Shown here piece by piece: positions 11,263 to 11,814 of a stretch of 64,000 bases of DNA. The stretch is from assembly GCA_035544215.1 (NCBI GenBank), contig DATKHY010000007.1:1054001-1118000 (forward strand), in the 5' to 3' direction. This stretch comes from Candidatus Binatia bacterium (GTDB lineage: Bacteria; Vulcanimicrobiota; Vulcanimicrobiia; Vulcanimicrobiales; Vulcanimicrobiaceae). The position numbers were made by a program, and so were the translations under genes. Under the pieces are notes generated by a model. That model saw only the letters and a list, made by a program, of their open reading frames with translations. It was not told the origin of the DNA and did no database searches. How positions within the stretch are numbered: the first letter of the stretch is position 1; the number at the start of each line of letters is the position of its first letter.

Positions 11263-11652
11263 ATGGTCGTGCGCGGGTTAATCACGTTGCTATGCGGTGT
11301 TGGGCTCTATGCGTCACTTTTCATGCTGGCCAAGAGTCGTAGGGCCGCGCGCGGTGAGGTCGCGGGACCGAGCGTCGTCACGACGCCCCGGGCCCACCTC
11401 TACGGCGTTCAGAACGCGCTCCTCGGGGCGATTTACTACCCGGCGCTGGCGGCCGCCATCTGGCTGGCGCGTCCAGGCGCCGCGATGCTGGCCGTCCTGG
11501 CGGCGGTCCTCTTCGCCGCCCTCACGTCGGCGTTTCTGGCCTATTCGCTGCTCTTCGTCACGCGTCGCGAGTGCTCGTATTGCTGGACCGCCCACGTCGT
11601 GAACTGGGCGCTCCTGATACTTTCCGGCTGGTTATTCGCGCGGCCATCTTGA
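11263..11652 (+). CDS. Vitamin K epoxide reductase (VKOR)-like membrane protein
   Basis: A 129-residue protein with four predicted helices. The GVQNALLGAIYYP segment and the CxxC in RRECSYCWTAHVVNWALL, placed at the start of the last helix, match the quinone-reducing VKOR family that reoxidises DsbA-like partners. The two loop cysteines that relay electrons in typical VKORs are not seen: the loop between helices 1 and 2 (SRRAARGEVAGPSVVTT) has none. The only other cysteine lies in helix 1 (LLCGVG). A partner protein may supply them, or the activity may differ. The ATG at 11263 begins the first helix. Its last bases overlap the -35 region of the downstream candidate RNA promoter. Confidence 0.7.
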   Translation: MVVRGLITLLCGVGLYASLFMLAKSRRAARGEVAGPSVVTTPRAHLYGVQNALLGAIYYPALAAAIWLARPGAAMLAVLAAVLFAALTSAFLAYSLLFVTRRECSYCWTAHVVNWALLILSGWLFARPS

Positions 11653-11678
11653 GTCCGGGTATCTGATTTTGGTAGAAT
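11649..11678 (+). promoter_or_regulatory. Sigma70-type promoter for a candidate small RNA
   Basis: TTGAGT (11649-11654) and TAGAAT (11673-11678) are separated by 18 bp, giving 4/6 and 5/6 matches to the consensus. Transcription would begin near 11685. The only downstream features on this strand are the structured intergenic stretch and the terminator at 11781-11814, since rpiB lies in the opposite direction. Confidence 0.55.
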
Positions 11679-11684
11679 CGGCCT

Positions 11685-11814
11685 CTCTGGTGGACGGCAC
11701 GAACGGGCGCCGAAACCGCCGGAAGAGAGGGCCGGCCGCGTAGCGTTAGTTCTACGAACCGGCGAACGGCAGTTCAATAGGGGGTTGCGCGAGTGCGCAA
11801 CCCCTCTGCTTTTA
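11685..11814 (+). ncRNA. Candidate structured small RNA, about 130 nt
   Basis: This intergenic stretch holds no credible reading frame but has nested base pairing. GGTGG (11689-11693) can pair with CCGCC (11716-11720) and CGGC (11695-11698) with GCCG (11709-11712), extended outward by CTCT (11685-11688) with AGAG. A further small hairpin pairs GAAC (11756-11759) with GTTC (11772-11775). A promoter-like pair lies directly upstream and a stem-loop terminator ends it. I compared it by eye with SRP RNA, 6S RNA, tmRNA, RNase P RNA and common riboswitches and found no convincing match. If it is not an independent RNA, it could be the 3' untranslated region of the VKOR-like gene. Confidence 0.45.
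11781..11814 (+). terminator. Rho-independent terminator
   Basis: A perfect 10-bp GC-rich stem, GGGGTTGCGC (11781-11790) with GCGCAACCCC (11795-11804), closes a GAGT loop and is followed by the T-rich tail TCTGCTTTTA. The opposite strand lacks a T run after the hairpin, so it mainly serves plus-strand transcription. Its tail overlaps the rpiB stop codon. Confidence 0.85.

Follow-up and report, generated by a model that had tools for sequence, protein, structure and literature searches.

The described systems closest to the RNA gene reported here are the stand-alone intergenic small RNAs (sRNAs), 6S RNA (RF00013) and the CsrA sponges of the CsrB/RsmY type. With the stand-alone sRNAs it shares a promoter of its own, a predicted length of about 127 nt, three hairpins, an intrinsic terminator and the absence of a reading frame; it differs from them in having no Rfam match and no identified seed, and in lying in a genome in which neither Hfq nor ProQ was detected. 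6S RNA, likewise a stand-alone noncoding RNA gene, forms one long rod, about 180 nt in length and interrupted by a central bubble, as against three short hairpins here, and its covariance model gave no match at the locus. Candidates for it lie elsewhere in the relatives, for example at G019:C77:5534-5719, with scores short of the Rfam cut-off, and the genome of the window yielded none (the window being the whole stretch of 64,000 nt that was analysed); the 6S RNA of this bacterial family is probably divergent and unannotated. The CsrA sponges are also multi-hairpin RNAs, and CsrA is present in 17 of the 18 genomes of the window's genus (g1). However, GGA motifs are not enriched in 27 homologues (66, compared with 66.4 in shuffles), only 13 of them are mostly unpaired and few lie in loops; this lack of enrichment makes a CsrA sponge unlikely, and we consider it the least probable of the alternatives that we weighed.

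No Rfam 15 family reached its gathering score in the window, at the locus or in the homologues. Covariance searches at gathering and permissive thresholds gave only weak, generic terminator-like matches below the cut-off, in agreement with the original prediction that no known RNA family explains this gap between genes. A literature search on Eremiobacterota, within the library searched, returned no small-RNA publications and nothing on this RNA. The comparisons strongly support what appears to be a new RNA family, found in one family of Candidatus Eremiobacterota and belonging to a kind already known.

The gene comes from an uncultured soil bacterium with a genome of 3.23 Mb in 9 contigs, and the relatives carrying the same VKOR gene are, where named, metagenome-assembled genomes of Candidatus Eremiobacterota. 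As originally located, it occupies the 159-bp gap between the VKOR-like gene (stop codon TGA at 11650-11652) and the convergent rpiB (stop codon at 11812-11814, minus strand), and both stop codons place the gap correctly. The VKOR gene is a synteny marker outside the RNA gene. Genera are labelled g1, g2 and so on, and the features are as follows, with positions in the window.

11263..11652, plus strand: upstream neighbour, a gene for a VKOR-family protein of 129 aa (PF07884, E 7.9e-14)
11649..11654, plus strand: -35 box TTGAGT, read from the sequence, overlapping the VKOR stop codon; almost every homologue has TTGnnn, spaced at 17-18 nt
11670..11678, plus strand: extended -10 element TGGTAGAAT, scored against shuffles and kept in homologues
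11684..11686, plus strand: predicted transcription start, 6-8 nt past the -10 box, placed from the promoter position
11685..11811, plus strand: predicted RNA, about 127 nt, from the promoter and terminator positions
11684..11728, plus strand: hairpin 1, UCUCU...AGAGA with inner GGUGG/CCGCC and CGGC/GCCG (genus fold; hairpin in g19)
11731..11763, plus strand: hairpin 2 (covariation; independent folds in g19 and g26/g29)
11731-11735 with 11759-11763, plus strand: lower stem of hairpin 2, GCCGG/CCGGC (covariation)
11739-11743 with 11752-11756, plus strand: upper stem of hairpin 2, CGUAG/CUACG, separated from the lower stem by an internal loop
11744-11751, plus strand: loop of hairpin 2, CGUUAGUU (sequence and fold)
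11764..11767, plus strand: linker GAAC, single-stranded (alignments A1 and A6)
11768..11813, plus strand: composite intrinsic terminator, conserved; both partners change in 10 of 11 inner pairs
11769-11772 with 11806-11809, plus strand: outer stem of the terminator, GCAG/CUGC
11773-11779, plus strand: 5' bulge of the terminator, 7 nt
11780-11805, plus strand: inner stem of the terminator, 10-11 bp with a GAGU loop; the perfect 10 bp are 11781-11790 with 11795-11804
11810-11813, plus strand: U tail of the terminator, overlapping the rpiB stop codon
11812..12240, minus strand: convergent downstream neighbour, rpiB (PF02502, E 7.6e-35)

The promoter had been predicted as TTGAGT and TAGAAT with an 18-nt spacer and is present in that form, with the -10 hexamer at 11673-11678 and a TG ahead of it. 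Such sites are rare by chance, one being found in the gap compared with 0.1 expected in shuffles. The pattern TTGnnn, 17-18 nt, TG-n-TAnnAT is conserved, and 33 of 38 homologues (87%) reach a promoter score of at least 9, compared with 4% of shuffled upstream sequences. Judged by these motifs, the predicted promoter is of the sigma70 type with an extended -10 element, and the start expected near 11685 and the length of ~130 nt both fit the positions of the promoter and terminator. A GTAGAA/TTCTAC pairing had also been pointed out. The match exists in the DNA, but is irrelevant to the RNA: its left arm falls outside the transcript, in a -10 box that varies freely in relatives (TATCAT, TAAAAT), and the two arms are not co-conserved. 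TTCTAC supplies the CTAC that pairs with GTAG (11740-11743) inside hairpin 2.

The fold of the gap beats 200 of 200 shuffles (z = -2.76), and the structure predicted from the genus alignment consists of hairpin 1, hairpin 2 and the composite terminator. Where about 100 nt of nested GC-rich stems had been described, the stems are real, but they form two successive hairpins and not one nested set. Hairpin 1 has few compensatory changes inside the genus, and in g19 a hairpin of different sequence stands in its place. The perfect 10-bp terminator stem with a T-rich tail is likewise present; by itself it is at chance level (one terminator found, 0.6 expected in shuffles), its tail being CTGCTTTT with a short U tract (UUUU), and it is convincing because it is conserved, not because of the shuffle count. 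In G042 (g26; locus L085) hairpin 2 is kept and the 3' hairpin is different and GC-rich.

When 98 relatives were searched at the DNA level, 17 of the 18 genomes of the genus, the window's included, proved to carry the element; the eighteenth, G006, is 65% complete, also has no VKOR match and gave weak matches elsewhere only. The RNA is more conserved than both flanking genes, for across the genus its mean identity to the window is 84.7%, whereas the coding sequence of VKOR reaches 75.4% and rpiB 77.8%. In the 3' core of the genus alignment, pairing holds in 95.6% of cells, and both partners have changed in 12 pairs; no shuffle reached this number, and the slid controls stay well below it. As the original prediction held, no reading frame explains the gap: none is shared among the homologues, whose lengths (136-140 nt) cover all three residue classes with single-base variation.

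The strong homologues all lie directly behind the VKOR gene or a remnant of it, and the terminator of g7 appears bidirectional, as might be expected if the element were the 3' end of the VKOR transcript with a terminator shared with convergent rpiB, the promoter and hairpins having arisen by chance. Such an origin is, however, at odds with the conserved promoter, with two further hairpins that covary or are independently predicted, and with other genera and families that keep VKOR without the RNA. It is also at odds with retention of the RNA beside a degraded or truncated VKOR gene. G050 has no more than a VKOR fragment and still carries the RNA, behind a clear promoter; in G044, whose VKOR gene is truncated before the CxxC region, the RNA likewise persists, behind a weaker promoter. 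This retention points to an independent gene and argues against simple read-through from VKOR, and we regard the 3'-end explanation as quite improbable. The candidate small RNA gene is supported by its conserved promoter, fold and terminator and by its survival independently of VKOR, and on these comparative grounds it is very probably an independent structured RNA gene. At the loci in which VKOR is reduced (L119, G050) or truncated (L066, G044), the neighbouring VTT-domain gene remains along with the RNA.

Regulation of convergent rpiB in cis, by transcription collision or antisense overlap, would be consistent with the U tail overlapping the rpiB stop codon in the window genome. However, in several relatives another gene follows the RNA or rpiB lies at a greater distance, and the structure of the RNA is conserved, which collision would not need; we consider this explanation very improbable. 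Within the genus, rpiB is farther downstream than in the window in several genomes (L003, L005, L008, L009), with extra sequence after the RNA.

A covariance model (R1) of 18 sequences, mostly from the genus together with g7 and g13, was searched over 99 genomes of the family. Although it carried no information on VKOR, its new matches, in g10, g34, g37, g19, g28, g2, g36 and g12, lie directly behind the VKOR gene or a remnant. All matches of at least 36.5 bits are at the VKOR locus, while below this score locus and chance matches mix; a match in G125 sits at a contig start, with VKOR outside the view and rpiB following. In the realigned set of 39 sequences (A6), pairing holds in 94.8% of cells, and both partners change in 21 of 25 core base pairs, counts that lean towards the model structure because the alignment was fitted to it. 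The covariation score of this alignment, counted over related and not independent sequences, is 0.457, compared with 0.189 in shuffles and at most 0.105 in slid controls. A check that still includes sequence relatedness ranked all 3,124 column pairs by corrected covariation: the top nine are without exception pairs of the predicted structure and belong to the terminator and the two stems of hairpin 2. In addition, g19 aligned alone without the model gives the same three hairpins, and independent folds of g26/g29 recover hairpin 2 and a terminator hairpin, their first hairpin being weaker.

When a second model (R2) was searched over 149 genomes of the phylum, 40 matches scored 50 bits or more; they come from 39 genomes and 11 genera, all belonging to a single Candidatus Eremiobacterota family, and no other match exceeded 38 bits. 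A clear gap separates locus matches from chance matches; as R2 was trained on those same sequences, its informative part is what it misses. Across the 11 genera the stems, promoter and terminator are kept with compensatory changes; the refuting result named with the original prediction, stems not conserved in relatives, thus did not arise. Divergent homologues were recognized by eye at the same place in three further genera (g26, g29 and g5). No such RNA was seen in about 24 of the 38 genera of the family, and in several genera VKOR is retained with no space behind it for the RNA. Inspection of the VKOR locus in two other families revealed none, and elsewhere outside the family scores were at chance level. 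In G035 two VKOR-plus-RNA copies lie on different contigs (L062, L063), reflecting duplication or a mixed assembly.

Hfq was not detected in the window genome (G000), in 17 of 18 g1 genomes or in any of the eight g19 genomes, and ProQ was detected in none of 41 genomes. Since the RNA persists where Hfq was not found, Hfq is probably not required. Loss of Hfq was considered as a partner of the RNA and rejected: there is no exclusive link, because the Hfq-less g25, g11 and g23 have no such RNA and the Hfq-bearing g10, g34 and g37 do. Hfq was also undetected in 10 of 10 g25 genomes and in g11, g12, g23, g28 and g33, most other genera having it, and has apparently been lost several times inside one family.

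The most constant feature across genera is hairpin 2, whose upper stem of about five positions, one of them mismatched in some genera, ends in AG:CU and stands over an internal loop. The consensus of its cap, read by eye, is C-N(2-3)A-G-N(1-3), from which g19 departs. We infer that hairpin 2 is a recognition element for a protein or another RNA. A classical trans-acting base-pairing sRNA would have its seed in this loop, or in the linker plus a GGCAG freed from the CUGC arm. In its favour, CAG and CUGC hardly vary and show no covariation, in contrast to the inner stem next to them, a sign that more than pairing constrains their sequence, and a promoter and terminator of its own are typical of such an RNA. 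Yet even among members of the genus two or three positions of the hairpin 2 loop differ, variation is also seen in the loop of hairpin 1 and in the terminator bulge, the g26 homologues have no GGCAG/CUGC, and the genus has no detected Hfq or ProQ, one Hfq excepted. Such variation in the loops speaks against a long conserved seed, so that recognition through hairpin 2 is preferred, whereas the GGCAG/CUGC pair without covariation leaves base pairing open; a classical base-pairing sRNA seems to us rather doubtful. As a tentative proposal, the RNA might be a scaffold or ligand of an RNA-binding protein, with hairpin 2 as a new protein-recognition element, and might represent an undescribed class of Hfq-independent regulator or housekeeping RNA.

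The reading that we prefer, at a probability of roughly 0.6, is an independent noncoding sRNA gene acting in trans without Hfq via hairpin 2. Transcription would start just past the VKOR stop codon from the sigma70-type extended -10 promoter; the folded RNA would consist of the two hairpins and the terminator hairpin, and transcription would halt at the end of rpiB. Comparison among genomes shows that the gene is conserved, together with its promoter, structure and terminator, that it is independent of VKOR and that it is present where Hfq was not found; the RNA itself is presumably expressed. We further infer that it acts in trans, most likely without Hfq, and that hairpin 2, with its AG:CU-closed loop, would be the working part that a protein or another RNA probably recognizes.

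This would add a well-supported RNA family in a candidate phylum of soil and peat. Since the RNA persists in lineages without detected Hfq, it offers a concrete case of how sRNAs work, or are replaced, without that protein. The covariance model and the named genomes are ready for Rfam-style annotation and checks against environmental transcriptomes.

In some genera hairpin 2 is also similar in shape to the iron-responsive element (IRE), with a lower stem, a 5' internal loop and an upper stem of about five pairs, whereas most genera have other loops, of 6-9 nt. An IRE proper was rejected, as the CAGWGH hexaloop with a bulged C five pairs below is not seen (the window loop is CGUUAGUU), and the Rfam scans gave no IRE match. 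The resemblance is taken as a lead only; g2 alone carries the loop CAGAGC, with a possible C-G cross pair.
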